From: Oceaniglobus trochenteri
Lineage (GTDB): Bacteria > Pseudomonadota > Alphaproteobacteria > Rhodobacterales > Rhodobacteraceae
NCBI RefSeq assembly: GCF_020529025.1
Contig: NZ_JACNMM010000020.1
Coordinates: forward strand, 1 to 62,302
Direction: 5' to 3'
Length of the DNA stretch: 62,302 nucleotides
Part shown: piece by piece, positions 8,561-57,332 of the stretch
Numbering within the stretch: the first letter of the stretch is position 1
How the letters are laid out: every line of letters begins with the position of its first letter
The notes under the pieces: model-generated
Told to the model about the DNA's origin: nothing
The model's database searches: none
What the model saw: only the letters and a program-made list of their open reading frames with translations
Made by a program: the position numbers and the translations under genes

Positions 8561-8626
8561 AAGGCGTATCCTTGACTGGACCGCCGGGTCAATGGCCAAT
8601 CTGCAAAGCGACACAGGGAGAATGAA

Positions 8627-10498
8627 GTGAGCGACCAACCCGAAACCGTCACCCTGACCGTGGCGCAGGCCATCGTGCGTTACCTGGCCGCCCAATACAT
8701 CGAGATCGACGGGGAGAAGACCCGGCTTTGCGGCGGCGGCTTTGGCATCTTCGGGCACGGCAATGTCACCTGTCTGGGCGAGGCGCTGTACGATCACCGC
8801 GACGTGCTGCCGCTTTATCGGGGTCAGAATGAACAGGGGATGGGGTTCGCCGCCGCGGCCTATGCCAAGTACCACCTGCGCCAGAGGTTCATGTTCTGCA
8901 CCGCCAGCGCCGGGCCGGGCACCGCCAACCTGATGACCGCGGCGGCGCTGGCTCATGCCAACCGGTTGCCGGTGCTGCTGTTGTGCGGCGATACGTTCCT
9001 CACGCGGCTGCCCGACCCGGTGCTGCAACAGCTTGAACATTTCGGCAATCCGGCGCTGGGCCTGAACGACGGGTTCAAGGCGGTATCGCGGTACTGGGAC
9101 CGGATCACCCATCCGGCGCAGGTGGTGCAGACGTTGCCCGCCGCAGTGGCGACCATGCTGGACCCCGCCGATTGCGGGCCGGCCTTCCTGGCGCTGCCCC
9201 AGGATGTGCAGGGGTGGACATGGGATTATCCCGTCGCCTTCTTCGCCGATAAGGTACATCGCATTCGCCGTCAGGCGCCTGATGCGGAAGAGGTGGCGGA
9301 AGCGGCCGCTCTTCTCTCGGGCGCTGCGCGCCCCGCGATCATCGCTGGTGGCGGCGTGCAGTATTCGCGCGCGGTGGCCGAGCTGACCGCTTTTGCCGAA
9401 TCCCGCGGCATTCCGGTGATCGAAACCATCGCCGGGCGCGCCAACCTGGTGAACGATCATCCGCTGAACCTTGGCCCTGTCGGTGTGACCGGATCGGATT
9501 GCGCCAACTGGCTGGCCGAGCGAGCCGATGTGATCCTGTCGGTGGGCAGCCGGTTGCAGGATTTCACCACCGGTTCGTGGACGGCCTTTGCCCATGATGC
9601 GCGCTTCATCTCGCTGAACGCCGCCCGCCATGACGCGGGCAAACACATGTCGCTGCCCGTGGTGGGGGATGCGAAGCTGGGGTTGACGGCGCTGGACGCC
9701 GCCATTGGCGAATACCGCGCGCCCGAAGGCTGGCGGAAGGCCGCGCAGGCCGAACGCGCCAGGTGGGACGATTACGTTGCCGACAACGTGCGCCCGGGCA
9801 ACCGGCCCAATTCCTATGCCCAGGCGATCGGCGTGGTGAACGGGCTGTGTGATCCGGCCGACCGGATCGTGGCGGCCGCCGGGGGCTTGCCCGCCGAGGT
9901 GACGGCCAACTGGCGCACCCTGAAGACCGGCACCGTGGACGTGGAGTTCGGGTTTTCCTGCATGGGATACGAGATCGCCGGGGGCTGGGGCGCGCGGATC
10001 GCGCAGTCCGAGGGCGAGCCGGAGCAGGATACCATCGTCTTCTGTGGCGACGGCAGCTATCTGTTGATGAATTCCGACATCTATTCTTCGGTTCTGACCG
10101 GCAAGAAGCTGATCGTCCTCGTTCTGGACAACGGTGGGTTCGCCGTCATCAACAAGCTGCAGAACAACACCGGCCAGGACAGTTTCAACAACCTGATCGC
10201 CGACACGCCCACCGCCATCAACCCCTTTGCCGTGGATTTCGAATCCCACGCCCGCGCCATGGGGGCCGATGCGGAAACGGTGGCCAACCCCGCCGAACTG
10301 GCCGAGGCGTTCAAACGGGCCAAGGCGGCCGACAAGACAAGCGTGATCGTCATGCAGGTGGACCCCTACGAGGGGTGGACCACGGGCGGCCATGCCTGGT
10401 GGGAGGTGGGCACGCCCCATGTCTCGGACCACGACAGCGTGACCGAGGCGCACAAGGAATCCGAAAGCGCCCGGGTGCGCCAGCGAAAGGGCATCTGA
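8627..10498 (+). CDS. iolD: 3D-(3,5/4)-trihydroxycyclohexane-1,2-dione hydrolase
   Basis: 623 aa ThDP enzyme. The N-terminal catalytic Glu is in NEQGMGFAAAAYAKY (E69). The ThDP/Mg motif starts at GDG (474-476) and continues to an Asn in VLDNGGF. Length and motifs fit IolD, which opens the cyclohexane ring to 5-deoxy-glucuronate in the inositol pathway. The start is GTG with AGGGAG upstream; an ATG five bases before it hits a stop after one more codon. It is first of five rightward genes with essentially no gaps. Confidence 0.93.
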   Translation: MSDQPETVTLTVAQAIVRYLAAQYIEIDGEKTRLCGGGFGIFGHGNVTCLGEALYDHRDVLPLYRGQNEQGMGFAAAAYAKYHLRQRFMFCTASAGPGTANLMTAAALAHANRLPVLLLCGDTFLTRLPDPVLQQLEHFGNPALGLNDGFKAVSRYWDRITHPAQVVQTLPAAVATMLDPADCGPAFLALPQDVQGWTWDYPVAFFADKVHRIRRQAPDAEEVAEAAALLSGAARPAIIAGGGVQYSRAVAELTAFAESRGIPVIETIAGRANLVNDHPLNLGPVGVTGSDCANWLAERADVILSVGSRLQDFTTGSWTAFAHDARFISLNAARHDAGKHMSLPVVGDAKLGLTALDAAIGEYRAPEGWRKAAQAERARWDDYVADNVRPGNRPNSYAQAIGVVNGLCDPADRIVAAAGGLPAEVTANWRTLKTGTVDVEFGFSCMGYEIAGGWGARIAQSEGEPEQDTIVFCGDGSYLLMNSDIYSSVLTGKKLIVLVLDNGGFAVINKLQNNTGQDSFNNLIADTPTAINPFAVDFESHARAMGADAETVANPAELAEAFKRAKAADKTSVIVMQVDPYEGWTTGGHAWWEVGTPHVSDHDSVTEAHKESESARVRQRKGI

Positions 10499-31310: not shown

Positions 31311-32459
31311 ATGACCGCGCGCCCCTATCATACGCTGGACGAGATCAAGTCGCTTCTGCTGGCGCAGATGCCCGGCGTCGCCTATCACTATGCGCCCTGG
31401 GTGAAGGGCGCCTATGAGAACCAGGGCAATTATTTCACCCTGAACCCGGGGCGGGCCGACCGGAACGTCGGCAGCTTCTGGGTGCGCCTGACCGGGGCCA
31501 AGGCCGGCAGCTGGCAGGACAAGGCGACCGGACAGTTCGGTGACATCCTGGACCTGATCAAGCTGCACCTCGGGTGCAGCAATGCCGATGCCCTGCGCGA
31601 GGCGCGCGCCTATCTGGGGCTGGATACCGAAGATCCTGCCACCCGCCGGATCCGGGCCGAGGCGGCCGAGAAGGCCAAGGCGCAGCGCAAGGAAGCCGAG
31701 GCGCGGTTGCGCGCCACCGAGGCCCGGCGTGCGCGCCAGGCGCAGGCCATCTGGCTGTCGGCGCAGCCCGGCATCGCCGGTACGCCGGTCGAGGCCTATC
31801 TGCGCGACCAGCGCGCCATCGACCTGCGCCGCCTGGGCCGCCAGCCCGGCGCGCTGCGCTATGCGCCCGCCTGCTATTTCAAGCAGATCGACGCCGAGAC
31901 GGGCGAATGTTTCGAAGGCGAAGGCCCGGCCATGGTGGCCGCGATCACGCGCGACGGCAAGCATGTCAGCACCCACCGCACCTGGCTGGCGCGCGGGCGC
32001 GATGGCGTCTGGGGCAAGGCGCCCCTGCCCAAGGCCAAGATGGTGCTGGGCAATTATGCGGGCGGCTGCATCAACCTCTGGCGCGGCACCCGGCCGGACG
32101 GAAAGAAGCCGCCCAGCCTGGCGATGTGCCCGCCCGGCACCCGCGTCTACATCACCGAGGGCATCGAGGACGCGCTGACCGCGATGATGATGTTGCCCCA
32201 TGCGCGCCATCTGACCGCCATCGCCATCGGCAACTTTGCCCAGGTGCGCCTGCCCGCCAACGTGGCCGAGGTGATCATCCTGGGGGACAACGACGGCGAT
32301 CTGACCCCGCTGAACCGCGCGCTGGAGGCGCACCGGGCCGAAGGGCGGCGCGCCGGCGTCTATCTGCCCCGCACCCCGGGCTGCAAGGACCTGAACGACG
32401 AATGGCGCGCCCTGCTGGCGCAGGAGACCCGCGACCAGCGGCGCGAGGTGGCGCGATGA
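31311..32459 (+). CDS. Toprim-domain primase-like protein
   Basis: 382 aa. The N-terminal region (1-100) resembles zinc-less phage primase leaders (WVRLTGAKAGSWQDKATG, DILDLIKLHLGC), then a charged linker and a Toprim domain with Glu283 (ITEGIEDALTAMM) and the DxD pair Asp326/Asp328 (VIILGDNDGD). No CHC2 Cys set is seen. With the ATPase gene downstream it probably forms a primase-helicase pair for phage replication. Confidence 0.83.
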   Translation: MTARPYHTLDEIKSLLLAQMPGVAYHYAPWVKGAYENQGNYFTLNPGRADRNVGSFWVRLTGAKAGSWQDKATGQFGDILDLIKLHLGCSNADALREARAYLGLDTEDPATRRIRAEAAEKAKAQRKEAEARLRATEARRARQAQAIWLSAQPGIAGTPVEAYLRDQRAIDLRRLGRQPGALRYAPACYFKQIDAETGECFEGEGPAMVAAITRDGKHVSTHRTWLARGRDGVWGKAPLPKAKMVLGNYAGGCINLWRGTRPDGKKPPSLAMCPPGTRVYITEGIEDALTAMMMLPHARHLTAIAIGNFAQVRLPANVAEVIILGDNDGDLTPLNRALEAHRAEGRRAGVYLPRTPGCKDLNDEWRALLAQETRDQRREVAR

Positions 32460-32686: not shown

Positions 32687-33684
32687 GGGTGACCGATGGA
32701 TCATGGTTGACCTGCTATGTCAAGCGGATGACCAAGGCAGAGTTGCAGGCGGTTATCCGCGCGATGCCCTATGCCCGCCGTGCACATCCAGACTGGATCG
32801 CCCGCGCACTGAATGCCGAGCTGCGGCACCACATCATCAGCAACCGGCGCGATCACTATGATGGCCTGTCCCGAAACGGACATGGCGCCGTGATCGGTGT
32901 CGATCTGGCCCGCGGTGCGGACACGTCGGTTACCCGACTGGTGGGGGGGCATAACCGCATCGGAGGCGAATGCCTTTCTGCGGTCACTGCCGGTCGAGGT
33001 GCCGCTATGAGGGAGAAATCCATGATCTTCTCCGTCCCCATGGTGCGCGCTCTGCTGGACGGTAGCAAAACCCAGACGCGGCGGGTGTTCTGGACGCGGA
33101 AAGACCTGCCACCACCTCATAGTGTCGCGCGGAACGGCAGCGGGTTTATCGCCTGCTGGGACGGCGGCGCGCGTCACGACATCGAACATCTGCCGAAGTC
33201 TGGAGACCGTCTGTGGGTTCGAGAGGCATGGCAAGAGTTCTTCCAGGACGAGCTCCCGCCCGAACGGCAGTCGTCGAACGCAGGGCGGATGGGTATTCCG
33301 GCTTGCCCAGGCAGGCGGAGTGTCGTGGGCTTTCGCGCCGACGGAGAGCTGCCCGATCATCCCCAACATGGGAAAGCCATCTGGCGCCCCTCTATCCACA
33401 TGCCCCGCTGGGCCAGCCGACTGACGCTGACCGTCACCGATGTGCGGGTGCAGCGGTTGCAGGAGATAAGCTCCACAGATGCCGGTGCCGAGGGGTGTCC
33501 TGGGTACTACAACGCGCCAGGGGCCGACCCGGACCTTACCGACGATGAGACGGTCCTGGGCCAATTTCGCACCCTCTGGGACACCCTGAACGCCAGGCGC
33601 GGGTTCGGCTGGGACGAGAACCCGTGGGTTGTCGCCTACAGCTTCACGGTCGGGCGCGGCAACATCGATGCGGTGCCATCATGA
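32683..33684 (+). CDS. ASCH-domain phage protein with extra N-terminal region
   Basis: 333 aa. The part from about Met109 (33007) has the start of phage ASCH proteins, MIFSVPMVRALLDGSKTQTRR, followed by LWVREAW, IHMPRWASRLTL and GWDENPWVVAYSF. ASCH domains resemble PUA and may bind RNA or modified bases. The first 108 residues include a Trp/Arg-rich HTH-like piece (TKAELQAVIRAMPYARR) not expected in stand-alone ASCH proteins, so this is either a fusion or two genes sharing one open frame. It overlaps both neighbours by ATGA. Confidence 0.78.
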   Translation: MRVTDGSWLTCYVKRMTKAELQAVIRAMPYARRAHPDWIARALNAELRHHIISNRRDHYDGLSRNGHGAVIGVDLARGADTSVTRLVGGHNRIGGECLSAVTAGRGAAMREKSMIFSVPMVRALLDGSKTQTRRVFWTRKDLPPPHSVARNGSGFIACWDGGARHDIEHLPKSGDRLWVREAWQEFFQDELPPERQSSNAGRMGIPACPGRRSVVGFRADGELPDHPQHGKAIWRPSIHMPRWASRLTLTVTDVRVQRLQEISSTDAGAEGCPGYYNAPGADPDLTDDETVLGQFRTLWDTLNARRGFGWDENPWVVAYSFTVGRGNIDAVPS

Positions 33685-35621
33685 GCCCGCCGAAGTCGCC
33701 CGATCGCCCGGTCCCCGCCCAGCCCGACAACATCACCGACCTGGCCGCCCATATCGAAGGCACCCGGGCCGAGGGGGCCGATGCCGATCTGCACCGCGAT
33801 CATGAGGATCCGGGCCCCGATGCGCCAGAAGACAGCGGCCCGCCCCCGACCGAAAGCGGCAGGGGCGGGAAGCGTGGCAAGCCCAAGCGCCCCCACGGCG
33901 AGATCTTCGAGGGCAGCCCGGTCAAGGCCCTGGGCGTCGAGGGCAAGCGGTGCTGGTATCAGGACGTGCGCGGCCAGGTGATCGGGATCGAACACCACAA
34001 GGCGGCCGAGATCAGCCACCTGTTCGGCGGGCGCCTGCCGCTTCTGCGCAGCCATTTCAAGGCCATGAAAAAGGCACCGGGTGGCGGTTTCGAGCAGAAC
34101 ATGAAGACCTATGACGCCACGGCTGCCAGTCTGGCGATGATGGCGGCCTGTGACGAACAGGGCGTGTGGTCCCCGGCGCGGTCCCTGCGCGGGGCAGGCT
34201 GCTGGGTCGATGACGATGGCAAGCTGATCGTCCATTGCGGCACCAAGATCATGGTGAACGGCGAATGGCAGTCGCCCGGCCGATATGCGGGCAAGACCTA
34301 TGCCGCGCAGGAGGCCACGCCCTTCCCCTCGGACACCCCGGGGCGCGGCGAGGCGGCGCAGGATCTGCTGGGCGATCTGCGGCGGTGGTATTTCCGCCGC
34401 CCCGAGCTTGACCCCTACATGCTGATGGGGTTCATCGCCGCCCAGATGCTGGGCGGTGCGCTGGATTGGCGCCCGGTCGGCTGGTTCACCGGCGACCGGG
34501 CGCGGGGCAAGTCCGAGCTGCAGCGCCTTCTGCTGGCGGTGCATGGCGGCGAAAGCGGGCTGGTGCAGTCGTCTGACAGCACCAAGGCCGGTATCCAGGG
34601 CCAGCTGCGCGCGTCCTGCCTGCCCGTTGCCCTGGACGAGCTGGAGCCCGACGATCGGGGCAGTCTGCGCGAGCGTGACATCATCAAGCTGGCGCGCATC
34701 GCGTCGTCGGGCGGGATGACCCTGCGGGGATCGGCCGATCACAAGGGGCACAGCGCGAACATCTATTCGGTGTTCCTGTTCTCCTCGATCCTGATCCCGC
34801 CGCTTGAGGCACAGGACAAGTCGCGCCTGATCGTCTTCGACCTCGAGCCGATCCCCAAGGGTGCGCCGCGCCTGACGCTGGACCTGCGCCGGCTGCGTCG
34901 CATCGGCGCGCAGCTGCGCCGTGCGCTGATCGATGCCTGGCCCACCTGGCTGGAGCGTCAGGGCGTCTGGCACGCGGCCCTGGCCAAGGCCGACATCCAC
35001 GGCCGTGCCGCCGACAACTATGGCACCGTCATGGCCCTGGCCGACATGCTGCTGTCGCCCCACGACATCCGCGCCGACGTGGCGGCCAACTGGGTCGAAC
35101 GCCTGGGCGAGGCGCTGGAGGACGAGCCGGACGACGATCCGACGAACGCCGACGACATGCTGACGCACCTGTTGAGCCAACCCCTGGACCCCTGGCGCAA
35201 TGGCCGTCAGATGCCCGTGGCCGAATGGCTGGCCTATGCCGCCAATCTGCCCGGTGCCAGGGCACCCAGCGACAACACCATGCCCGACCAGGTGAACGGG
35301 CTGATCGCCACCTATGGTCTGCGCGTCGAGGGACAGCAGGAGAACGCCCGGCTGGCGATCGCCAATTCCAAACGCTGCCAGATGCTGAAGATTTTCGAAG
35401 GCACCCAGTGGGCCGGAGGCGTCTGGAAACAGGCCGCCGAGCGTCTGCCGGGTGTCGAGCGTGGCGTAAGCCGGACCTTCGCCAAGGTATCGTCCCGCGC
35501 CACGCTGGTGCCCTTCACCTCGCTGCCCGGCATCCTGGCCTTTCCCCAGAAAGAACAGTCGGGGGCGCGGTACGCGCCGCCGTCCTCTTCACCCGACATC
35601 TCCGACATAAGCGACTTCTGA
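33681..35621 (+). CDS. Phage replicative ATPase/helicase-like protein (DUF927/D5-like)
   Basis: 646 aa. After a polar Pro-rich N-terminus (1-75) comes a domain at about 80-220, then a P-loop: Walker A GDRARGKS (271-278) and Walker B PVALDELE (315-322), with the ATPase core to about 400 and a helical C-terminus. The arrangement fits helicase partners of Toprim primases in phages. It ends with repeated SDIS residues right before the iteron region, consistent with a replication module of primase-ATPase-origin. The start overlaps the ASCH gene (ATGA). Confidence 0.8.
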   Translation: MSPPKSPDRPVPAQPDNITDLAAHIEGTRAEGADADLHRDHEDPGPDAPEDSGPPPTESGRGGKRGKPKRPHGEIFEGSPVKALGVEGKRCWYQDVRGQVIGIEHHKAAEISHLFGGRLPLLRSHFKAMKKAPGGGFEQNMKTYDATAASLAMMAACDEQGVWSPARSLRGAGCWVDDDGKLIVHCGTKIMVNGEWQSPGRYAGKTYAAQEATPFPSDTPGRGEAAQDLLGDLRRWYFRRPELDPYMLMGFIAAQMLGGALDWRPVGWFTGDRARGKSELQRLLLAVHGGESGLVQSSDSTKAGIQGQLRASCLPVALDELEPDDRGSLRERDIIKLARIASSGGMTLRGSADHKGHSANIYSVFLFSSILIPPLEAQDKSRLIVFDLEPIPKGAPRLTLDLRRLRRIGAQLRRALIDAWPTWLERQGVWHAALAKADIHGRAADNYGTVMALADMLLSPHDIRADVAANWVERLGEALEDEPDDDPTNADDMLTHLLSQPLDPWRNGRQMPVAEWLAYAANLPGARAPSDNTMPDQVNGLIATYGLRVEGQQENARLAIANSKRCQMLKIFEGTQWAGGVWKQAAERLPGVERGVSRTFAKVSSRATLVPFTSLPGILAFPQKEQSGARYAPPSSSPDISDISDF

Positions 35622-36055
35622 CCGATCATGACCACATCCGCTAACACCTTGGCGCGCCACGCCTTTCCAACCCTCCCGCACCCTGTTATGCAGGCCGGAA
35701 TTCGCGTGCTGCGGCGGGGGGAAGGGGTAACACAGTGTGTTAGCCCTTGTGTTAGCCTTGTGTTAGCCCTGTTTCCCTTTGTTTTCCGTGGGTTACATGG
35801 CGTTTGCGCCGGGGGTAACACGCTAACACAAGGTTTCGCGAACCCTACACGCACACGCACGTACGCGCGCGCGCGCGCCTGCGCACTCTCTTTCTCTCTG
35901 TGTTACTGTGTTAGGGGTAGATATATATATGGAAAACAGCGGCTTAGCCTAACACAGGCCCTAACACAGGGTAACACAATCCCGATATTCCGTGTTACCC
36001 CCGCTGCCGCCTGCCTGCCCATTTCCGGCCAAGCCCTTGAAAAGGGTGCATTTTG
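35622..36055. other. Gene-free iteron block: candidate phage replication origin
   Basis: No credible gene. TAACACA (or inverse TGTGTTA) occurs exactly at 35728, 35736, 35748, 35759, 35824, 35899, 35907, 35950, 35962 and 35972, with near copies at 35642, 35816 and 35991. The first two form the palindrome TAACACAGTGTGTTA (35728-35742); the next are spaced 11-12 bp apart, about one helical turn. A 33-bp alternating purine-pyrimidine tract (35846-35878) and AT-rich GATATATATATGG (35919-35932) lie between the clusters. It directly follows the primase/ATPase genes. Confidence 0.75.
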
Positions 36056-36721
36056 ATGCCGGGGCGCCCGACGCAATACGAAGAACTGGCCCGCCAGATG
36101 GCCGAACGGCTCGAGGGGGACCGCGAGGCGGTGCGCCAGCTGTCGCTGCTGCCTGACGAGGTGGACGGCGCGCAGATGGTTGACCAGGGCGAGGGCGACG
36201 GGACCGGCAAGCGCGGCAAGGGCAAGGCGCTGAACCAGCTGCGGGAGTTCCTGGCGGTCAAGGGATACCGGATGCCCGAGGACGTGCTGGCCGAGATCGC
36301 CGGGCTGACCAGCGGGCAGGACGCCATCGCCACCGCCATGGCGCAGGCCGAGCGGATCCTGGCATGGGCCGAGGCCGGTGCCACCAGCGTCAAGGGCGCG
36401 CCCAAGGTCCAGACGCTGCCCCAGCGCCTGGCGACGTTCCAGCAGGTGCTGGTGGCCCAGCTGCGCGCCGCCGATGCCCTGATGCCCTATGGCGCGCCCA
36501 AGGCCACGCCGGACGTGACGGTGCAGCAGGCGGTGCACGTCCATGTCCCGGCCGCCCCCAGCCGCGACCAGGGCCGCGCGATGCGCGATGTTTCGCCCCG
36601 TTCGGACGTTCGGATGCTGCCCGCCGACCTGCGCCATGAAATGCAGCAAAAACAGGACGTTAGCAAAGCGGGCCAGCCCGGTTCGGACGGCGACACTCGG
36701 ACGAAAGGGCCAAGCCGTTGA
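36056..36721 (+). CDS. Putative terminase small subunit
   Basis: 221 aa. Starts MPGRPTQYEELARQ; the middle (KGKALNQLREFLAVKGYRMP, VLAEIAGL) resembles the small-terminase pattern of a G-K-G linker followed by helices; the C-terminus is polar. The assignment rests on position one small gene upstream of TerL and on this pattern. An upstream in-frame TTG at 36053 is less likely than ATG. Confidence 0.6.
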   Translation: MPGRPTQYEELARQMAERLEGDREAVRQLSLLPDEVDGAQMVDQGEGDGTGKRGKGKALNQLREFLAVKGYRMPEDVLAEIAGLTSGQDAIATAMAQAERILAWAEAGATSVKGAPKVQTLPQRLATFQQVLVAQLRAADALMPYGAPKATPDVTVQQAVHVHVPAAPSRDQGRAMRDVSPRSDVRMLPADLRHEMQQKQDVSKAGQPGSDGDTRTKGPSR

Positions 36722-36963
36722 AATCCCGAGGCAAAAACCCGGTTCTGCAACTGATTGAAAATCAGTGCGGCGGATGCTCTGCACGGGGCGACATCGCCCG
36801 CTGCGCCGCTTTCCCGGTGAACGAGTGCCGCACCGTGGCGGCGGTCCTGGCCGGGCCGATCCGCGCGGCGGCGACCCCCCGGGGGGGCCTGCCCGCGTCA
36901 GTCTCTCTCCCCCTCTGTGTGACCCCATACAGCATTTTGGCCTGCTCCGAGGTGAGCCTATGA
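36718..36963 (+). CDS. Possible Cys-rich small protein before TerL
   Basis: 81 aa if translated from TTG at 36718, which overlaps the previous stop (TTGA); its own TGA overlaps the TerL ATG (ATGA). The pattern CGGCSARGDIARC and NEC resembles small Cys proteins often found next to phage terminases. Start codon and reality are uncertain. Confidence 0.4.
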   Translation: MKSRGKNPVLQLIENQCGGCSARGDIARCAAFPVNECRTVAAVLAGPIRAAATPRGGLPASVSLPLCVTPYSILACSEVSL

Positions 36964-38762
36964 GCGCGAACCTTGGTTTGTTCAAATGGGGTGGGGGGTG
37001 TGTTGCCCGTTCGGCGCCCGGGGGCGAGGGGGGCAATGCCGCCGGGCCGATGGCCGGGGGCGAGGGGGGCAATGCCGCCGGGCCGATGGCCGGGGGCGTG
37101 ACGGATGATGCGCTGGAAGGTCTGTCAGCGAAGGAGGCAGTTGCGAGCCTAGACCTGCCGGGTGCGGCTGACAAGCTGGATCTTGATCCGGTGGTGACCT
37201 TCCCGGGGCCGATGGCCGAGGCCTATTACTGGTCCGACGACGATGTGGTCGCGATCCAGGGGCCGGTCGGGTCGGGCAAGACCACGACGAAGAACAAGCG
37301 CAAGCTGCGCCGGGCGATCATGATGCCGCGATCGAAGATCGACGGTGTGCGGCGCTACAAGGTGCTCTACATCCGCGAGACCTATCGCCAGCTGTGGTCG
37401 ACCACGATCCCCAGCTACCTGGAGCAGTTTCCCAAGAGCATGGGCACCTGGTCGGGCGGGCGGGGCGATCCGGTGACCCATGTGATCCGGTTCGACGACG
37501 GGCACGGCGAGATCGAGTTCGTGGCCGAGTTCATGGCCTTCGGCGATGACATCATCGCGTCCATGCGCGGTATCCAGGCAACCGACATCGACCTGAACGA
37601 AGCCGACACCATGCCGGTCGAGATCCTGACCGTGGGGATCGGGCGGATCGACCGCTGGCCCGCCCGCGAACATTTTGCCGGGTTGCCCGAGGATCTGCGC
37701 AGCTACGGGCAGATCGACTGCGACTTCAACGCGCCGGACGAAGACAACTGGACCTTCCGGGTGTTCCACGATGCCGAGGAGCGGATGCGGATCGCGGCGG
37801 AGCTGACGGCGGCCCTTCCCCAGGGCACCCGCCCGATCACGATCGAATTCTTCAACCAGCCAGGCTATGGCCAGCCCGGCGCCGAGAACCTGCAAAACCT
37901 GTCGCCCGCCTACTATCCCCGCCAGATCGCGTCGATGAAGCTGGCCGGGCGCGGCGACATGATCGACCGGCTGGTCTACAACAAGGTGGTTTACCTGCGC
38001 GTGGGCGAGCCCGTCTTCAAGCGCGAGTTCAACCGGCGGGTTCATGTCAGCGACGGGCCGCTGGACATCATCCAGGGTGAACCGCTGCGGATCGGCCTTG
38101 ACCAGGGCCTGAAGGGTGCGGCCGTGGTGTGTCAGTTCGTGCCGCCCTTCCACTGGCGTGTCTACGCCGAGATGCACTTTCCCCAGGAGCGCCTGCTGGC
38201 CAAGGTCTTTGGCAACCGCCTGCGCGACCTGCTGGACGAACGGTTCTTCGGGCTGCGCATCGAGGCGGGCTGGGGCGACATGGCGGGCGAACACGGCGCC
38301 AGCGAGGCGGCCGACGAGAACGACACCTGGAACCGCCTGGTGGCCCAGTCGGCCGGCTTCGCGATCCGTCCCCAGCGGTTGGGCACGAACCGGATCAGCC
38401 CGCGCCTTGAGGCCGTGCGCGCGGCGCTGGAATACCTGGACGGGGGGCAGCCCGGGCTGCTGATCGATCCCAGTTGCAAGATGCTGATCCGGGGGTTCGA
38501 AGCGCGCTATGTCTGGACCGATGCGGTGAACGCCAGCGGCGACAAGCGCAAGATCCCCGACAAGAGCTTCACCGAGGCCAACGTGCATGACGCGCTGCAA
38601 TATGTGGCGCTGTCCGAACACCGGGCCGACGGGATCAGCCCCAACAGTTTTCCCGACAATCGCCGTGGCCGCATGGGCCACAACGGAGGGCCGCCCCTGT
38701 CGGGGATGAAGGGCGGCCTGCAAACCGGGCACGATGTGCTCAACCCATATGGGGGACGATAG
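36960..38762 (+). CDS. Terminase large subunit
   Basis: 600 aa. Walker A GPVGSGKT (101-108), Walker B-like TDIDLNEAD (about 208-215), and a C-terminal RNase-H-like nuclease beginning IGLDQGLKGAAVVCQF. It packages phage DNA into the prohead. The ATG at 36960 follows GAGGTGA and overlaps the previous stop. Residues 21-45 hold a tandem 12-residue Gly/Ala repeat absent from typical TerL, encoded by a 36-bp DNA repeat. Confidence 0.92.
   Translation: MSANLGLFKWGGGCVARSAPGGEGGNAAGPMAGGEGGNAAGPMAGGVTDDALEGLSAKEAVASLDLPGAADKLDLDPVVTFPGPMAEAYYWSDDDVVAIQGPVGSGKTTTKNKRKLRRAIMMPRSKIDGVRRYKVLYIRETYRQLWSTTIPSYLEQFPKSMGTWSGGRGDPVTHVIRFDDGHGEIEFVAEFMAFGDDIIASMRGIQATDIDLNEADTMPVEILTVGIGRIDRWPAREHFAGLPEDLRSYGQIDCDFNAPDEDNWTFRVFHDAEERMRIAAELTAALPQGTRPITIEFFNQPGYGQPGAENLQNLSPAYYPRQIASMKLAGRGDMIDRLVYNKVVYLRVGEPVFKREFNRRVHVSDGPLDIIQGEPLRIGLDQGLKGAAVVCQFVPPFHWRVYAEMHFPQERLLAKVFGNRLRDLLDERFFGLRIEAGWGDMAGEHGASEAADENDTWNRLVAQSAGFAIRPQRLGTNRISPRLEAVRAALEYLDGGQPGLLIDPSCKMLIRGFEARYVWTDAVNASGDKRKIPDKSFTEANVHDALQYVALSEHRADGISPNSFPDNRRGRMGHNGGPPLSGMKGGLQTGHDVLNPYGGR
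37020..37098 (+). repeat. 36-bp tandem repeat in TerL N-terminus
   Basis: Two perfect 36-bp copies (37020-37055, 37056-37091) and 7 bp of a third, encoding GGEGGNAAGPMA twice. In frame, so copy number could vary without breaking TerL. Confidence 0.9.
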
Positions 38763-39026
38763 ATGCACCTGAAAATTCACACGGCGGCCTTGCCGGATGA
38801 AGAGGTAACGATCTCGAGCAGCGCGGCCGAATTGGTTCGGATGGGGTTCAACCCCTCGAAAATGCCAAAGGTCGATCGCCTGAAGGCATTGGCCGCCGCC
38901 TTCGTTTCGGAATGCGAGGTCATTCGTGATGCGCGCGGTGCGGGTGGGCGTGAGGCCGCCATCGCCATCACGGAAATGCAAGGCGCCAGCATGTTCGCTG
39001 TGGCGGCGGCCACCGCCGATCTGTGA
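38763..39026 (+). CDS. Acb2/Tad1-hairpin-like protein (candidate anti-CBASS sponge)
   Basis: 87 aa, starting at the base after the TerL stop with GGGGGA upstream. The C-terminal two helices (VDRLKALAAAFVSECEVIRD and GREAAIAITEMQGASMFAVA) match the helical-hairpin pattern of the Acb2 family: small proteins that oligomerise and sequester cyclic nucleotide signals of CBASS/Thoeris. Acb2 genes often lie in the head-gene region of phages. Family membership is by eye; activity is inferred. Confidence 0.5.
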   Translation: MHLKIHTAALPDEEVTISSSAAELVRMGFNPSKMPKVDRLKALAAAFVSECEVIRDARGAGGREAAIAITEMQGASMFAVAAATADL

Positions 39027-43143: not shown

Positions 43144-43992
43144 ATGAGCGCCGATGTTATTCCATTTGATTTTGAAGAGCAGGCCGTGCGGGTCGTGATG
43201 CGCGGTGACGATCCGTGGTTCGTCGCCGCCGATGTGTGCCGGGTGTTGGAAATCGGAAATCCGAGCGATGCCGTGTCGCGGCTCGACAACGACGAGCGGC
43301 AGAAGATCAATCTGAATACCCTCGATACTATCGAGGGTATTCGCGGAAACCCGAACGCGACCATCATCAACGAAAGCGGTCTTTACGCTCTTGTCCTGAC
43401 CAGCCGCAAGGAACAGGCGCGCCGGTTCCGCAAGTGGATCACGGCCGAGGTTCTGCCCGCGATCCGGCGTACCGGGCGATACGATCATCCCGGCATCGAT
43501 CAACCTGCCACCGGCGGTGGTCTCGACGACAGCACGTCGCGGGATGCCGAATTGTGGTTGTCGATGATCCGCGAAGCGCGGCTTCTGGGTGGCACCAAGG
43601 CCGGGCGCAGCATGTGGGCACGTTCGCCCCTTCCGCCGCTGTTGCTGGCCACGGCGGGCCAAGCGCTGACCGTATCGCCAGCCGAGGGGCAGGCGTGTCT
43701 GGATCATCTGCTGAACGGGCTTGCCCATCATCTGGACGGCGGTTTTGCGCATACTGACGTTGCGCTTGCCCCGCTGGGTTTGCGCATGGTGCAGTCCGGG
43801 CTGTTCGTCGCCAACGCCCATCCCGGCATTCTGCATCTTTACCGCGACACGCCGTGGTGCGACGGGCGGCATCGCAGTGCGCTTATGGCCCTGCCGGGCG
43901 TCGAAATTCATGCCGGCACCCTGACCATCGCGCGCCAGTCGGTGCGCGGCATCGTTGTGCCGGGGATGTTGCTGCGCGAGGTGGCGGCATGA
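43144..43992 (+). CDS. BRO-N domain antirepressor-like protein
   Basis: 282 aa. Bro-N at about 10-112: PWFVAADVCRVLEIGNPSDA, NESGLYALVLTSRK, FRKWITAEVLPAIRRTG. The C-terminal region (120-282) is not a recognised KilAC/ANT domain. Bro-N proteins bind DNA or repressors and often trigger induction. It lies inside the head-gene cluster, unusual for an antirepressor, with a structured leader over its ribosome site and an intragenic inverted repeat (43315-43341). A non-cleavable repressor would make such an antirepressor useful. Confidence 0.85.
   Translation: MSADVIPFDFEEQAVRVVMRGDDPWFVAADVCRVLEIGNPSDAVSRLDNDERQKINLNTLDTIEGIRGNPNATIINESGLYALVLTSRKEQARRFRKWITAEVLPAIRRTGRYDHPGIDQPATGGGLDDSTSRDAELWLSMIREARLLGGTKAGRSMWARSPLPPLLLATAGQALTVSPAEGQACLDHLLNGLAHHLDGGFAHTDVALAPLGLRMVQSGLFVANAHPGILHLYRDTPWCDGRHRSALMALPGVEIHAGTLTIARQSVRGIVVPGMLLREVAA
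43315..43341. repeat. Perfect 12-bp inverted repeat inside the BRO gene
   Basis: AATACCCTCGAT (43315-43326) and ATCGAGGGTATT (43330-43341) with a 3-bp spacer, within the Bro-N domain coding region. Confidence 0.9.
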
Positions 43993-45661: not shown

Positions 45662-46105
45662 CTACTTCAAGAGCGATTGCATCCCCAAGCCGTGTATCAC
45701 GCCAAGTTTAACACGACGCAGATCTTCGGCATCGGCAGTCGGTGTGAGATATTTTCGGCGGTCAACCTTAAACCCGTCAAGGCGGCTCCGCGCTACATTC
45801 ATCACCATATCGCATTTTGCCCAACAGGGCAGCGTGTCGCATTCTTTGGGGTGATAGTTCTTGGAAAGCTGGACGACATACGGTTCGCAGTGGGTTGGCG
45901 CTGTCAAGCTGATCGGGACAATCGTGACGATGAATGATCGATAAGGAAGGCGGGGCGAAATCACCATAACAGGTCTAACCTTGACCATTTCAGGTTCGAC
46001 GAACCCCTCAAAGTCACATACCAAAATTTGCCCTGCTCGAGGATGGAAGCCGATCGCCAAATAACTGCCCTCATGGGGCTGCCGAAGATTGACTTGGGTG
46101 TCCAT
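45662..46105 (-). CDS. PemK/MazF-family toxin-like protein
   Basis: 147 aa from ATG 46105 (GTG at 46117 is an alternative; AGAGGTG overlaps it and serves 46105). RAGQILVCDFEGF, then EMVKVRPVMVISPR, resembles the GDIxLVDF and RPVVVxS motifs of MazF-type endoribonucleases; TIVPISLTAPT follows. Opposite strand and lower GC mark it as a moron inside the capsid region. In TA systems MazF cuts mRNA; activity here is inferred. A 39-aa ORF upstream may be the partner. Confidence 0.75.
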   Translation of the reverse strand: MDTQVNLRQPHEGSYLAIGFHPRAGQILVCDFEGFVEPEMVKVRPVMVISPRLPYRSFIVTIVPISLTAPTHCEPYVVQLSKNYHPKECDTLPCWAKCDMVMNVARSRLDGFKVDRRKYLTPTADAEDLRRVKLGVIHGLGMQSLLK

Positions 46106-51358: not shown

Positions 51359-53448
51359 CGCTGACGGTTCCCCAGAGCAATGCACGGCCTGGCCGTGCCC
51401 CCCAGGTCCGCGTCGAGGCCAACGGTGCCGGTGAGGCGATCGAGCAATTCGGCCAGGTGATGAACAAGGTCGGCACGCGGATCGTGGAAGACCGGCTGAG
51501 CCGCGCCACTGCCCGGGCTGAAACCGACTTCACCAGGGACATCGGTCAGCTGCGTCTGGAATTCGACCAGATGACCGACCCCGACGAGATCGATGCCCAG
51601 TGGGGCCCCCGGGTGGCCGAGCTGAAGGCCAGGTACATCGAGGGGCAGGACCCGCGCGTGCGAGACCGCCTGGACATCGGGTTCGATCGCCTGGCCAACA
51701 CGCACGCCAACGCCTTGGGCGCACGCGCGATCGCACTGGGTCAGCAGCAGCGCGAAGCGGACTGGATCACCTATCGTCACGAGACGCTGAACCAGGCGGC
51801 CCGTTCCGACCCCGAAACGCGCGACGAGCTCTTGTCGACCGGCCTGGCCAAGATCGACAGCCTGGTGACGGATGGAACCATCACGGCCGACGAAGGCGCA
51901 CTGCGCAAGGTGAGGCTGATCGGCGATGCCGACAACGCCAGCGCGACTTCCCTGATTGCGGAAGACCCGGCAGCCTTCCTGACTGCCGCCGAGGCGGGCA
52001 TATATGACGGCCTGGGTGCCGAAACACTGGCGACCAAGAAGGTGCAGGCGCAGGCGCGCCTGGATGCCGAGGCGGCCGAGCTTGAGCGCGCCAGCGAAAA
52101 GGCGGATCGTGAACGCAAGGCCGGGATCGGCGACTGGCTGAGCGATGCGACCGCCATTCTGAAATCCGGGCGCCAGCTGAAGGACGTGGCGCGCCTGAAC
52201 GATCCCGAGGTGCAGGCCCACCCGGCCTATGCCGAAGCCTCGGCCGCCTATGATCTCGCGCTGGAGATCCCGAACCTTGCACTGCTGACGCCGCAGGAGC
52301 TGCGCCAGGCCTTGCAGAGAGAGCGCAACGATCCTGTCGAGAAGCCTTTCCAGCTCGAGCGGGAGAAGGTGCTGCGCGATGCCCTGGCCGAGGCCGAGGC
52401 CGGGTGGAAGCGCGACGCCGTCGCCTATGCCGGGACCAAGGACAACGTGCTTTCGTTCCCGGAACTGCCCGACTTCGATCCGGCCGATCCCGAAGCCTAT
52501 GCCCGGGGCATCGCGGCGCGGGTGCGTCATGCCGGATACCTTCAGGAAAACGGCTATATCGATGATCTGGCGGTGCTGGATGCCGAACAGAGGGCCGCGC
52601 TGAAACAGCAGACGGGGCCCGAAGCCGACCCGCACGCGCGCACGGTTCTGGCCGCCGCGCTTCACGGCGGCCTGACCGAAGCGCCCGAGTTGTTCGAGAC
52701 GGTGTCGGATGATCCGGTGTTCCGTCATGTCGGCCGGATGCTGTCCAGCGGATTGAACCCCGTCACGGCCGAAGAGCTGTTCAAGGGACAGCAGGCCCTG
52801 GCCCAGGGCAACGTCAGCCTGCCCCCGGCACGGTCGCGGCAGGATGCGGCCTTTTCCGAGATCGGTGACATCTATGCCGATGTGCGGGGCGGGCAGGCCC
52901 TGCAGGCCGAGACGATCGCAGCGGCCGATGCGCTTTATGCGGCGCGCATGGGGCGCATCGATCCCGGCGCCGACATCGACGAGGATGTCTATCGCCAGGC
53001 GCTGCACGAAGCCAATGGCGGCCTTGGCCCCTATGACAGCCCCCGCAAGGCCAAGGGAGGCGTCCAGACGATCAACGGCCAACCCACCCTGTTGCCGCCG
53101 GACATGACGGCGGCCGAGGTTCAGGATGCCTATGATCGCATCGAAGATCAGCTTGATGGTTGGCGGGACAATCAAGGCTATGGTCTTCGCAAGTTCGCAG
53201 CAAAGGACAATGAGATTATCCTGCGAGGGTTGCGTGCGGCTAGCATAAACGGGAAAGATCCGGTTCTTGGCCCCCCCGAGCGTGCTGCTGGATTGTTCCG
53301 GGATGTGCGGTTCATCAAGCTACCTGGGGCCGATGACCTTTATTACCTGCGCTATGAGCGTTCGGGGGAGCCGTATTTCGTAGAGGATACCGAAGGCGCG
53401 ACTTTCGTCTTCAGTTTGCGTGACCTAATCGAAGGTTCGCGCGAATGA
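51355..53448 (+). CDS. Internal virion protein B-like (T7 gp15)
   Basis: 697 aa (T7 gp15: 747). Long helical, acidic/Ala-rich protein (DRLSRATARAETDFTRDIGQ, ELERASEKADRERKAGIGDW). C-terminal 70 residues (LYYLRYERSGEPYFVEDTE) have more strands. It should form part of the DNA-ejection channel. ATGA overlap on both ends. Confidence 0.8.
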   Translation: MTLTVPQSNARPGRAPQVRVEANGAGEAIEQFGQVMNKVGTRIVEDRLSRATARAETDFTRDIGQLRLEFDQMTDPDEIDAQWGPRVAELKARYIEGQDPRVRDRLDIGFDRLANTHANALGARAIALGQQQREADWITYRHETLNQAARSDPETRDELLSTGLAKIDSLVTDGTITADEGALRKVRLIGDADNASATSLIAEDPAAFLTAAEAGIYDGLGAETLATKKVQAQARLDAEAAELERASEKADRERKAGIGDWLSDATAILKSGRQLKDVARLNDPEVQAHPAYAEASAAYDLALEIPNLALLTPQELRQALQRERNDPVEKPFQLEREKVLRDALAEAEAGWKRDAVAYAGTKDNVLSFPELPDFDPADPEAYARGIAARVRHAGYLQENGYIDDLAVLDAEQRAALKQQTGPEADPHARTVLAAALHGGLTEAPELFETVSDDPVFRHVGRMLSSGLNPVTAEELFKGQQALAQGNVSLPPARSRQDAAFSEIGDIYADVRGGQALQAETIAAADALYAARMGRIDPGADIDEDVYRQALHEANGGLGPYDSPRKAKGGVQTINGQPTLLPPDMTAAEVQDAYDRIEDQLDGWRDNQGYGLRKFAAKDNEIILRGLRAASINGKDPVLGPPERAAGLFRDVRFIKLPGADDLYYLRYERSGEPYFVEDTEGATFVFSLRDLIEGSRE

Positions 53449-56400
53449 GCATGACGGAATTTGGATTGGCGCCGGAAGATCGCGGCGAGCCAGGGCCGAA
53501 GTTGACACCTGCGGTGAGGCCGCAGGTATTGGAACCTGAACCGCGCAAGGTCAGGGACACTCGCCCCGAACCGGAACCTGCTGGCCGGGGTGCGAGGGAC
53601 GATGCAACTGCCAGTCCCCGTTTGCCCAAAGCGGTGCAAGTGCCGGTCAACCGCACTCCACCCCCGAAGAATGACGGATCTGACGATCCCGCGGGGACGT
53701 TTGATGTTCTGGGCGCCTCTTGGCGTTCCGAAACCATCCGCACGGACGCTTTCGGATACGCTGCCCGCCAACGCGCGGCTTTGGCCTTCGACATGCTGGA
53801 GAGGCTTTCGCCTGAGGGATTGGATCGTGTTCGCAAGCGGATGGGGTCGCCGCAGTTTGCGGATGAGAAGTTCACCGATCTAGTGGTAGCGGAGGCTGCG
53901 CTGGAAGCCGCCGAGAACCCGGACGCCTGGGACGACATGCCGCTGGACCCCAAGGCCTTCACGGCCAGGATCAACAGCCAGCGCAAGGCAGACCTGGCCG
54001 AAGCCGAGGCCGTGTTGAACCAGCCTGGCGGCGCCTTTGCCGAATTCGCGGGGTCGATGGCCCGCGCCTTTGTCGATCCGGTCAACCTGGCCCTGGCCCC
54101 CTTCGGGCTGGGCGGATCGCTGGGGCGTGTCATCGTGTCGGAGGCGGCCCTTGGCGCAGCGGGCGAAGCCGCCAGCCTGCCCCGGGAATACCGGGTCGCG
54201 GATGAACTGGACATCGACCCGCCGAACCCGCTGGTGCGCATCGCATCGGGCGCGGTGTTCGGCGGCGGCGTGGCCGGGGTGATCGGGCTGGGCGCGCGCG
54301 CCCTGTCCCATGTGAGCGCCAAGCGCCAGGCCACCCGCGAGGCAACGGCCGACAGTGACGATCCCCTGGGAACGCGGGCCGAGATCGACGCGGCCGAGCG
54401 GCGGCTGGCGGGTCGCGATAGGCCTGCGGGCCGCATGGCGTCGGGGCGCAAGGTGCCCGTCACCTACGAGCTTGACGGCAAGATCCGGTCAATCCCGCCC
54501 GGCGATGCATTCGTGGCGCAGGTCCAGTCTGTTGTTGCCCCGCTGGGCGATGACATCGGCGTGGTCATCACCTCGGGCGGCCAGGTCGCGAAAGGCACCG
54601 AAGGCCCGCGCACGGGCTCGACGCGCCACGATGTCGACGAGCATGGCGAAGCACATACGGCGGACATCGTTCTGACGCGCAAGGGTGTTCGCGTCCGCCC
54701 GGCCGACGATCCCGAACTGTACGAGAAGTTCTTCAACCGTGCGGCCGCCGTCTGGCCTGGTCTGGGCCACTATGAATGGGGGGTCCATGTCGGCGGCGGC
54801 AGCGTGGCAGCCTGGGGCCCCGACAAGACATCGCGCACGCTTGACCCCCGGTTCGGACGTGCCATTGCCGCTGGCCGCCAGGGGCGGACGCTGGATGGCG
54901 CGGGCAGCCTGGGCGAAGTGATCCCGATCGAGATCCGCAATGGCATCTTCGCAGGGGAAAGTGGCGGCGACTACGATGCCCTGTTTGGGTTCCAGAACCG
55001 CACGGGGGGGCGTTACGCCGACGTGCGCCTGACAGACATGACCGTTGATGAAGCCATCGCGTTTGCATCTCCGCGTGGTGAATATGCCGGTTGGGTCAGG
55101 TCGCAGGTGGGGCGTACCGCAACGCCGATGGGGGCTTACCAGATCGTTGGCCAGACCCTGCGCGAATTCAAGGCCAAGCTGCGCCTGACCGGCGAAGAGC
55201 TGATGACGCCCGAGTTGCAGGATCGCATCGCCTATCACATCTGGAAGGATCAGGGCACCGGTGCCTGGCAGGGCTATCGCGGGCCACGCAGCACGGCGCC
55301 CTCGGCCTCGGGCGGCGCGTCGGCGGCCGGCGGCGGGGGGGCGGTTGACTACAGCGGTTATTCCACGTCGCGCGGATACACCGACACCGGCCAGGTGCGC
55401 TATGGCGACGGCAAGCAGATTGACGTGGAATATGTCGTTGCCGACCTGTCGACCCTTCGCCAGGCCAGCGGCGACCTTCAGCCGCGCGATCGCGGGCGTG
55501 CCAGTTCCGACGCCCAGGTGGCGCAGATTGCTGCGGGCCTTGACCCGGCGCTGTTGATGCCAAGTCCGACGGCGGATCGCGGCACCCCGATCGTGGGCCC
55601 GGACGACGTGATCGAAAGCGGCAACGGCCGGATGCTCGCGCTGGGGCGCGCCTATGACCAGGGGCTGGACAGGGCGCAGGCCTATCGCCAGGCGATCGAG
55701 GCGGCGGGATACGAGATCCCCGAGGGCATCGAGCGGCCGGTGCTGATCGCGCGGCGCACCTCGCAGATGAGCGATGCCGAACGGCGCACCTTCGTGGTCG
55801 AGGCCCAGGACAGTGGCGTCATGCGGATGCCGGCCGAGGAACGGGCCCGCGTCGGCGCCGGTGCCCTGGATGGCGGGCTGATGTCGAAGTATCGCCCCGA
55901 TGCGGATCTGCGCAGCCCCGACAACGCCGAATTCACCCGCGGTTTCCTGTCTGCCTACCCGGCATCCGAACGGGCGGATTTCACGCGCGGCGACAAGAGC
56001 CTGTCGTCGGCGGCCATCCGGCAGATCCGCGACGTGTTCTTTGCCCGCGCCTATGAGGCCCCCGACATCGTCGCGCGCTATGTCGAGGAAGACGCCGGGC
56101 CGATGCGCAGCCTGATGGATGCCCTTGCGACCGCGGCCCCCGATCTGGCCGCGCTGCGCATCGACATCGCCAATGGCCTTGTCGCCCCGGAAATGGACAT
56201 CACGCCCTTCCTGCTGGACGCGGTGCGGCTGATCGCCAGCGCGCGCGACCTGGCCGCCGCCCGGCCGGGCAGCACGGCCGCGCAGATGGTCGAAGAGCTG
56301 CTGGCCGATGTCGATCTTCTGGATGGCGCCATAGCGCCCCTGACGCGGGCGCTGGTGGCCCGTCTGATGCCGGGCGGGCGCCAGGCCCCGGCCGACAAGG

Positions 56401-57332
56401 TGGCGGCCTTCCTGCGCCAGTACGCGGGCGAAGCGCGCGCGGCAGGGCGCACCGGTGGATTGCTGGATGCCCCCGGCCCCCTGGACGTGCTGAAACGGAT
56501 CGATCCCGATACCTTTGGCGATCTGACCGAAACCGGGATCAGCCGCGCCGGCGCTTCAGAAATGCAGGCACCCGACGCCCTGCCCAGCGGTGCAGCCGAC
56601 GAGGGCGCATCATCGCCCGATCTGGTCGCGGGCGATCAACGTGCAAGCCAGGCCATGAGGGATGAGGCACAGCAGCCTTTCGGCCCGATCCACACGGATC
56701 TTCGCGATCAGCCGGAAGCTGCCATCCAGCGTTTGCTGGCCGAAAAGACCGGCGAAGTTCCCGACGCGATCGTACATCCGGAACTTGGTGATATCGCCTT
56801 TGTCTATGGAAAGCCTGACCCGAAAGGGTTTGGGCTATCGCATATCATCGAGGATCACCCTGGCGACATCGAGCGGGTGATCGATGTCTTGCGGCGCGGG
56901 ACGGTTGTTCAGCGATCGGAGAACCGGGTGCGCCTGGTGATCGACGATGGCGACATGGCGGTTGCGGCGGTTCGCCTGTCATACGATGGCAAGCAGAAAA
57001 ACTGGCTTCTGACAGGTTATCGTGTCGATCGGCCTGCCGATGTGGCTGAAAATGCCCGGCTTCTGCGGAGGACTGACGTGCAGAACGTTGACGCATCAAC
57101 GGCTCCTGATGCGACCGGACCCTCCAAAGATAAGAGCGAGCCCGCCACCTGGCAAGCCCCCGATCCGTCTGACGATGTCGCGCAACTGCGCGCATCGAGC
57201 GCTTCGGATGAGCTGACCTTCACCCGCGAGGACGGCACCGAACTCTCCCTGACAGAGATGCTGGACGAGCTGGATGAAGACGACGTCCTGACCACGGTGG
57301 TCAGCGGCTGCGCGTTGAAAGGAAGCGCCTGA
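53445..57332 (+). CDS. Large ejection protein with peptidoglycan-degrading and polyvalent domains (T7 gp16-like)
   Basis: 1295 aa (T7 gp16: 1318). Segments: Pro-rich start (1-90); helical with a hydrophobic stretch at about 262-285; an M15-like peptidase region (about 360-475: Arg394-His395, Asp407 in HTADIVL, His448 in WGVHVG); a muramidase-like domain (about 500-605: Glu505 in FAGESGGDYDALFG, PMGAYQIVGQTL); a DdrB/ParB-like region (about 655-805, ending in IESGNGRMLALGRAYDQG and similar); a helical part; and a PBECR-type nuclease-like region (about 1090-1200: GFGLSHIIEDHPG). It probably digests the wall and is injected with DNA; the last two domains would act in the host. Assignments by motif only. 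Confidence 0.75.
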   Translation: MSMTEFGLAPEDRGEPGPKLTPAVRPQVLEPEPRKVRDTRPEPEPAGRGARDDATASPRLPKAVQVPVNRTPPPKNDGSDDPAGTFDVLGASWRSETIRTDAFGYAARQRAALAFDMLERLSPEGLDRVRKRMGSPQFADEKFTDLVVAEAALEAAENPDAWDDMPLDPKAFTARINSQRKADLAEAEAVLNQPGGAFAEFAGSMARAFVDPVNLALAPFGLGGSLGRVIVSEAALGAAGEAASLPREYRVADELDIDPPNPLVRIASGAVFGGGVAGVIGLGARALSHVSAKRQATREATADSDDPLGTRAEIDAAERRLAGRDRPAGRMASGRKVPVTYELDGKIRSIPPGDAFVAQVQSVVAPLGDDIGVVITSGGQVAKGTEGPRTGSTRHDVDEHGEAHTADIVLTRKGVRVRPADDPELYEKFFNRAAAVWPGLGHYEWGVHVGGGSVAAWGPDKTSRTLDPRFGRAIAAGRQGRTLDGAGSLGEVIPIEIRNGIFAGESGGDYDALFGFQNRTGGRYADVRLTDMTVDEAIAFASPRGEYAGWVRSQVGRTATPMGAYQIVGQTLREFKAKLRLTGEELMTPELQDRIAYHIWKDQGTGAWQGYRGPRSTAPSASGGASAAGGGGAVDYSGYSTSRGYTDTGQVRYGDGKQIDVEYVVADLSTLRQASGDLQPRDRGRASSDAQVAQIAAGLDPALLMPSPTADRGTPIVGPDDVIESGNGRMLALGRAYDQGLDRAQAYRQAIEAAGYEIPEGIERPVLIARRTSQMSDAERRTFVVEAQDSGVMRMPAEERARVGAGALDGGLMSKYRPDADLRSPDNAEFTRGFLSAYPASERADFTRGDKSLSSAAIRQIRDVFFARAYEAPDIVARYVEEDAGPMRSLMDALATAAPDLAALRIDIANGLVAPEMDITPFLLDAVRLIASARDLAAARPGSTAAQMVEELLADVDLLDGAIAPLTRALVARLMPGGRQAPADKVAAFLRQYAGEARAAGRTGGLLDAPGPLDVLKRIDPDTFGDLTETGISRAGASEMQAPDALPSGAADEGASSPDLVAGDQRASQAMRDEAQQPFGPIHTDLRDQPEAAIQRLLAEKTGEVPDAIVHPELGDIAFVYGKPDPKGFGLSHIIEDHPGDIERVIDVLRRGTVVQRSENRVRLVIDDGDMAVAAVRLSYDGKQKNWLLTGYRVDRPADVAENARLLRRTDVQNVDASTAPDATGPSKDKSEPATWQAPDPSDDVAQLRASSASDELTFTREDGTELSLTEMLDELDEDDVLTTVVSGCALKGSA

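Follow-up and report, generated by a model that had tools for sequence, protein, structure and literature searches.

Probable lytic replication origin of an Oceaniglobus prophage: a mirrored iteron array behind a helicase gene

Iteron plasmids with Rep_3/RepA-type initiators carry repeated initiator-binding sites beside AT-rich DNA, and phage P4 encodes the alpha protein, in which primase and helicase are fused and which reads short iterons, with ori and crr as separate sites. The DNA treated here is a 62,302-bp stretch of Oceaniglobus trochenteri (hereafter the window), which is the whole of contig C10 in a 33-contig genome of 4.59 Mb and holds a podovirus-type prophage with a dense array of short repeats between a helicase gene and the terminase genes. 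In a preliminary description of the window, these repeats were put forward as a candidate origin of replication, and comparative evidence supports that proposal: positions 35728-35997 are most probably the lytic replication origin of the prophage, read by the C-terminal domain of the helicase encoded upstream. What carries this reading is sequence comparison, namely the array itself, its geometry of six plus six sites, the conservation of that geometry under a changing word, the association with the helicase, the covariation of the word with helicase residues 606-634 and the occurrence of the arrangement on small plasmids. A literature search limited to open-licence papers found no description of such a system.

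The closest described systems are those of Staphylococcus aureus pathogenicity islands (SaPI) and phage-inducible chromosomal islands (PICI), both staphylococcal and Gram-negative. According to excerpts of PMC7581432, the C-terminal domain of SaPI Rep reads an iteron origin directly downstream of its own gene, and according to excerpts of PMC6092414, which also mention the P4 alpha protein and its ori, PICI origins lie 3' of rep, with two iteron sets flanking AT-rich DNA. As far as these excerpts go, the likeness consists of an origin immediately 3' of an initiator-helicase gene (here, the helicase gene ends at 35621 and the array starts at 35728) and of two sets of iterons. The present system differs in that the dyad flanks an alternating purine-pyrimidine run, with the AT patch inside the right half, in that its carriers are complete phages with portal, capsid and terminase genes, as well as small plasmids, and not capsid-less helper-dependent satellites, and in that DUF927 was matched only below the cut-off. 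Because the phage is complete and DUF927 remains below the cut-off, we regard the system as working like SaPI/PICI Rep-ori, but do not file it as a member. In the staphylococcal cassette chromosome (SCC), Cch contains DUF927 and the C-terminal domain of Cch2 binds short direct repeats downstream of the operon (excerpts of PMC7581432). An initiator-type helicase is common to both systems, whereas three 5-nt iterons and a different primase are described for SCC, and a 12-site dyad does not figure in those excerpts. Unlike in P4, primase and helicase are here separate genes and the sites form one compact dyad. The difference from iteron plasmids is that no Rep_3/RepA-type Pfam match was found in the ten open reading frames (ORFs) around the array, as the preliminary description had also judged when it saw no plasmid-type initiator family, and that the proposed reader is the helicase.

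Geometry and words of the array

Within the window, TAACACA on either strand has ten exact matches, every one at 35728-35978 (251 bp), versus an expectation of 0.89 (standard deviation 0.78, maximum 3) over 100 dinucleotide shuffles, which confirms the ten copies in both orientations counted earlier. The 6-letter core GTGTTA/TAACAC is present in 13 copies at 35642-35997 and in one more at 45709. Of the 13, all but the copy at 35642, which lies outside, are arranged as two mirror-image sets of six about a centre near 35865, and relative to this centre (arrows for orientation) the twelve map as <-134 >-125 >-113 >-102 <-46 <-38 | >38 >46 <88 <100 <110 >130. Since the spacing is 8-12 bp inside clusters, with larger gaps of 42-76 bp, the helical phasing formerly read into the clusters gives way to a fixed geometry. 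The AT-rich patch noted at the same time is real but short. No Rfam family was found at 35300-36400. Directly before the array, at the position of 35660-35727, a -10-like TGCCATTATT box is enclosed in many relatives by an inverted repeat that is conserved (CCCnACCC ... GGGTCnGGG); the window's version is only loosely recognisable by eye.

Across 42 non-redundant loci, 18 words are used with near-identical spacing. These words follow the form YGT-N1N2N3N4, in a few cases with G instead of Y, and the window's is TGTGTTA. Besides TAACACA in the window, there is CACAACG in the second prophage of the same genome (contig C13, helicase at 46% identity) and in many other loci, and also CTACGAC, CCACGAC and CTGCTAC, among others. 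The GT-N1N2N3N4 frame had been fixed by inspection of the arrays before words and helicases were first compared, and an automatic rule agrees with it in 40 of the 42 loci. A dyad centre was obtained in 36 loci (those without one are L059, L063, L088, L093, L100 and L102), with on average 5.69 exact copies on the left and 5.58 on the right; exactly 6+6 copies are present in 15 of the 36, and the left half has six in 27. A typical map is that of L105, <-132 <-124 >-102 >-90 <-46 <-38 | >38 >46 <90 <102 >120 >132. Alternating purine-pyrimidine runs of at least 16 nt occur in 40 of the 42 arrays, versus 0.5% of control windows.

Relatives of the helicase (an ATPase) were searched for in 248 genomes of the same family (E up to 0.001), 390 of the same order and 385 of the same class (E up to 1e-20); counting the window's own genome, 8, 11 and 8 of them, respectively, gave matches. 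A single helicase protein as the query found nothing in viral or genome contigs, and the use of profiles brought in a further 14 genome loci and 40 viral loci, the named genera of which we take, from their names, to be mostly Rhodobacteraceae or Roseobacteraceae. For 53 of 63 close-family loci, the 600 bp around the helicase end hold an array denser than every control window of the same locus. With copies merged (8 of the 63 are duplicates), 47 of 55 distinct loci beat all control windows, the pair L069/L108 (6 versus 4 and 6 versus 6) being scored as a success. Among the ten failures, the array is displaced by inserted genes in six, split between two words in one, correctly placed but equalled or exceeded by a control in two, and not found in one (G524). 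Locus L104 (truncated) was left out, as were L227 and L232-L236. BPP-1 and BcepC6B show, by eye, only four-copy repeats, and PY223 and ZRG1 none by count.

Helicase relatives were also found in 14 of 72,556 plasmid records; seven of the 14 were read, and position maps were made for four of the seven Arsenophonus nasoniae records. Behind the helicase gene of these four lie 13, 14, 13 and 9 copies of a word, respectively; three of the arrays are 6+6, with an inner spacing of 8 bp, an outer spacing of mostly 12 bp and one or two extra copies. Two plasmids of one strain, paPv13 and paPv15, carry different words. The Arsenophonus plasmids have five to nine genes listed in a gene table known to be incomplete; pArsFIN16 and paPv15 have only five and six frames of at least 80 amino acids (aa), with no evident replication gene besides the helicase and a protelomerase. 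As natural plasmids, they count as indirect evidence that helicase and array may replicate autonomously. The Phaeobacter and Leisingera phage-plasmids have RepA/RepB and an RP-C match, and the helicase module is not the sole replicon there; in phage-plasmid pP24_g and the Leisingera plasmid, both with the RP-C match, similar-looking repeats are not outstanding by count. The array of the Atlantibacter plasmid pLH84-a-B (L240) is not clearly above control (7 versus 6), and at 8595-8895 its halves use mainly different words, GTTACC and GTAATA.

Helicase residues that vary with the word

Over the 37 loci having all four proteins (helicase, primase, small and large terminase), distances between iterons were set against distances between proteins, window by sliding window, with 1000 permutations. 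The set omits relatives with at least 85% helicase identity, helicases shorter than 500 aa and the too-distant G730a, G820 and L069. For the helicase, the correlation peaks at residues 606-634 (rho 0.515, reached by 0 of 1000 permutations), versus 0.274 for the primase (78/1000), 0.126 for the small terminase (537/1000) and 0.173 for the large one (571/1000). Word differences thereby appear to track helicase residues 606-634 and not the primase or either terminase, three candidates rejected as readers because their distances do not follow the word, and the C-terminal domain of the helicase is proposed as the putative iteron reader.

Pairs of loci with the same word are more alike in residues 612-626 than pairs with different words in five of five bands of background identity, the pairs being non-independent. 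An example is L085 and L109, in which the helicases are 85% identical outside the segment, yet segment and word both differ. At single positions, T at N3 is accompanied by Thr/Ser at residue 618 in 28 of 29 loci and C at N3 by Lys/Arg/His in 9 of 10; G at N4 is accompanied by Gly at residue 621 in 28 of 28, and A at N4 by a residue other than Gly in 8 of 12. Single-column mutual information was distrusted on its own, since one large-terminase column also reached a z of 9.9.

The preliminary description had offered two possible readers, the ATPase and a 311-aa protein resembling a helix-turn-helix (HTH) protein. It is the ATPase that is favoured, as the word tracks its residues 606-634. The 311-aa protein was detected in 7 of 73 loci, among them the window (the sequence extends 6 kb or more upstream in 58 of the 73), and C13, despite its different word, encodes a close relative of it (E 7e-125); a phrog_874 protein, present in 3 of the 73, was likewise rejected. 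Extra proteins with the helicase C-terminal domain are encoded in the window at 43144-43992 and in L073, L094, L096 and L103. Comparing the segments of these five distinct close-family proteins with the local words gave one clear mismatch (L073) and is not informative.

Counter-evidence and rival explanations

Several observations weigh against the array being an origin read by the helicase. Without the 14 TGTG loci, the correlation at residues 606-634 is 0.23, versus 0.22 elsewhere in the helicase; the 618/N3 and 621/N4 associations remain in that reduced set (Fisher p 4.6e-5 and 3e-4, values that ignore relatedness). Helicase columns 125 and 326 outscore column 618 for N3. In 14 new contigs, the segment predicts the exact word in eight and the rest of the helicase in three, and a constant guess of TGTG scores 7 of 14, so the prediction test adds little. 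The run comprised 30 loci, and the count omits L141 (a duplicate of G475), the distant L159 and L216-L231; among the 14 counted contigs, L128-L130, L149/L151 and L162/L163 are mutually close. In the 25-locus genome set, the top 7-mer behind the helicase outscores the top one elsewhere in only 12 loci, with five ties and eight lower, the loci without a denser array being mostly distant relatives, and 7 of 15 distant new viral loci have at least ten copies of one word. No array was found in G524, the helicase of which is at 41% identity, and the six insertion loci (L067, L086, L088, L092, L096 and L099, with L067 and L099 as copies) keep the array beside the small terminase and not the helicase. 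Moreover, the G730 genome has two modules sharing the core word GTTACG, and no solved structure resembling the helicase by sequence was found. In L112 (Acinetobacter phage Acjo_20), a GTTACA array at 3000-3650 lies upstream of the primase-helicase gene, which is also at odds with the proposed order.

If the small terminase read the array as a packaging site (cos/pac), this would fit the position of its gene, which directly follows the array in the close family and stays beside it in the six insertion loci. The terminase distances, however, do not follow the word, and more distant loci have a phrog_9 (G388, G218, G730b, G473) or phrog_15 (G320, G723) terminase instead of phrog_2, with other genes in between; the arrays there are above control by count only in G388, G320 and G723, the others being seen only in position maps, weakly in G473. 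The terminase of C13 is divergent, yet its word is the commonest one, and pArsFIN16, which lists no terminase gene, has a repeat array after its helicase. With these cases at hand, we consider packaging very unlikely. A control based on large terminases without the helicase failed, as all seven matches (in 6 of 390 genomes) fell in helicase-carrying genomes.

Late-gene operators had been named from the start as the alternative to an origin. Packaging and late genes would then be controlled from the array by a regulator, for which the antirepressor-type protein sharing the C-terminal domain is a possible candidate, and both the presence of this protein in the prophage and a few relatives and the conserved inverted repeat with its -10-like box before many arrays can be cited for this view. 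The extra protein is found in only five distinct close-family loci, though, the L073 segment mismatches the local word and a promoter search over 35550-36150 gave no consensus match. Operators do not usually consist of 12 sites in a dyad around a fixed centre, and a dyad that moves with the helicase beside different terminase families and onto small plasmids is a poor fit, which makes this explanation quite unlikely. Extremely unlikely, in our judgement, is a partition or incompatibility site that does not start replication: words do differ between co-resident elements (C10 versus C13, paPv13 versus paPv15), but the array follows the helicase and not ParA/ParB genes, and two phage-plasmids have separate RepA/RepB partition genes elsewhere.

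Open frame, gene neighbourhood and proposed mechanism

The stretch holding the array had been described as lacking a credible gene. This stands insofar as the 142-aa frame at 35628-36056 has no Pfam or PHROGs match and shows no trace of sequence conservation, and fails insofar as this frame crosses the whole array. On the + strand, an open frame crosses 41 of 41 close-family arrays (L063 omitted) when 5.0 are expected from dinucleotide shuffles, versus 2 of 41 on the - strand, and most crossing frames begin with a start codon close to the helicase stop and run to about where the terminase gene starts. Over 20 close pairs (four of which are the same pair of prophages), differences number 315, 341 and 362 at the three codon positions and gaps are mostly not multiples of three; given this even spread and the non-triplet gaps, the protein sequence is without visible constraint. 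What appears conserved in the close family is the openness and not the protein sequence, and translation across the origin may avoid transcription polarity or provide coupling to the terminase gene. Among distant arrays, 1 of 10 is open.

That primase and ATPase genes precede the array, as first described, was borne out by the ORFs annotated with Pfam and PHROGs (Table 1). The DUF927 match of the helicase has 18.8 bits, under the cut-off of 22.6 (weak similarity); among 37 helicase relatives, DUF927 was matched in 14 at E up to 0.05 and primase_Cterm weakly in three. A primase relative is present in 52 of 73 helicase loci. Besides the large terminase, the window encodes a T7-type portal (PF12236), which lies downstream of the array, and a major head protein (phrog_3437). 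The protein at 38763-39026 has an Acb2/Tad1 hairpin domain, presumably that of a family of phage counter-defence sponges, and the 1295-aa protein at 53445-57332, with ddrB-like ParB and PBECR1 nuclease-type domains, is probably a virion protein. Within the large-terminase gene, a direct repeat with a 36-bp period lies at 37018-37098.

Table 1. Features of the putative origin and of the genes around it (window positions)
Feature	Position	Strand	Basis or remark
Core origin array (putative), 12 GTGTTA/TAACAC copies as two mirror-image sets of six about a dyad axis near 35865	35728-35997		Word count and position map
Left half: 35728-, 35737+, 35749+, 35760+, 35816-, 35824- (start, GTGTTA strand)	35728-35829		Position map
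Right half: 35900+, 35908+, 35950-, 35962-, 35972-, 35992+ (start, GTGTTA strand)	35900-35997		Position map
33-nt alternating purine-pyrimidine run at dyad centre	35846-35878		Z-DNA-prone; functional role presumed
AT-rich patch, between right inner pair and right middle cluster	about 35918-35937		Candidate melting site
Thirteenth TAACAC copy, outside the 6+6 core	35642-35647	-	
Putative initiator helicase/ATPase, proposed iteron reader	33624-35621	+	P-loop (GDRARGKS) and LDELE motif recognised by eye
Helicase C-terminal domain (residues 560-645)	35301-35558	+	Proposed iteron-reading domain
Variable segment of helicase C-terminal domain (residues 612-626)	35457-35501	+	
Primase	31311-32459	+	DUF7146 and Toprim_3
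142-aa open frame through whole array, helicase end to next gene	35628-36056	+	
Small-terminase-like gene	36053-36721	+	By position and relatives (no family match); not supported as reader
Large terminase	36765-38762	+	phrog_2
Antirepressor-type protein	43144-43992	+	C-terminus is the same domain as the helicase C-terminus

In the mechanism that we propose for the origin, the helicase encoded just upstream would be the initiator, each subunit reading one iteron of 6-7 bp (YGT-N1N2N3N4) with its C-terminal domain. Because there are six sites per half, we infer that one hexamer would assemble on each side, so that the alternating run would lie between two opposed hexamers. The AT-rich DNA close by may then melt and the hexamers load outward, with the Toprim primase encoded upstream priming a synthesis that would be bidirectional. 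Related elements would keep the geometry and change the word and the reading segment together, so that co-resident replicons do not cross-fire, incompatibility being the presumed driver.

More tentatively, and with somewhat more doubt than confidence, the locus may represent a widespread phage and plasmid replicon, having a fixed 6+6 landing pad with one iteron per helicase subunit and two opposed hexamers, a code between residues near 618-621 and N3-N4 that diversifies like an incompatibility type, and one phage lineage in which a frame is kept open, its protein not being conserved, so that ribosomes cross into the packaging genes. The sequence-neutral open frame raises a separate question, that of translation across origins. 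The layout described for satellites (excerpts of PMC6092414) would be extended to complete phages and small plasmids, and with words and reading segments listed in pairs, the specificity code becomes directly testable. For the way in which a self-loading initiator helicase may come to sit on DNA, the 12 sites in their 6+6 arrangement give a testable rule of count and geometry.
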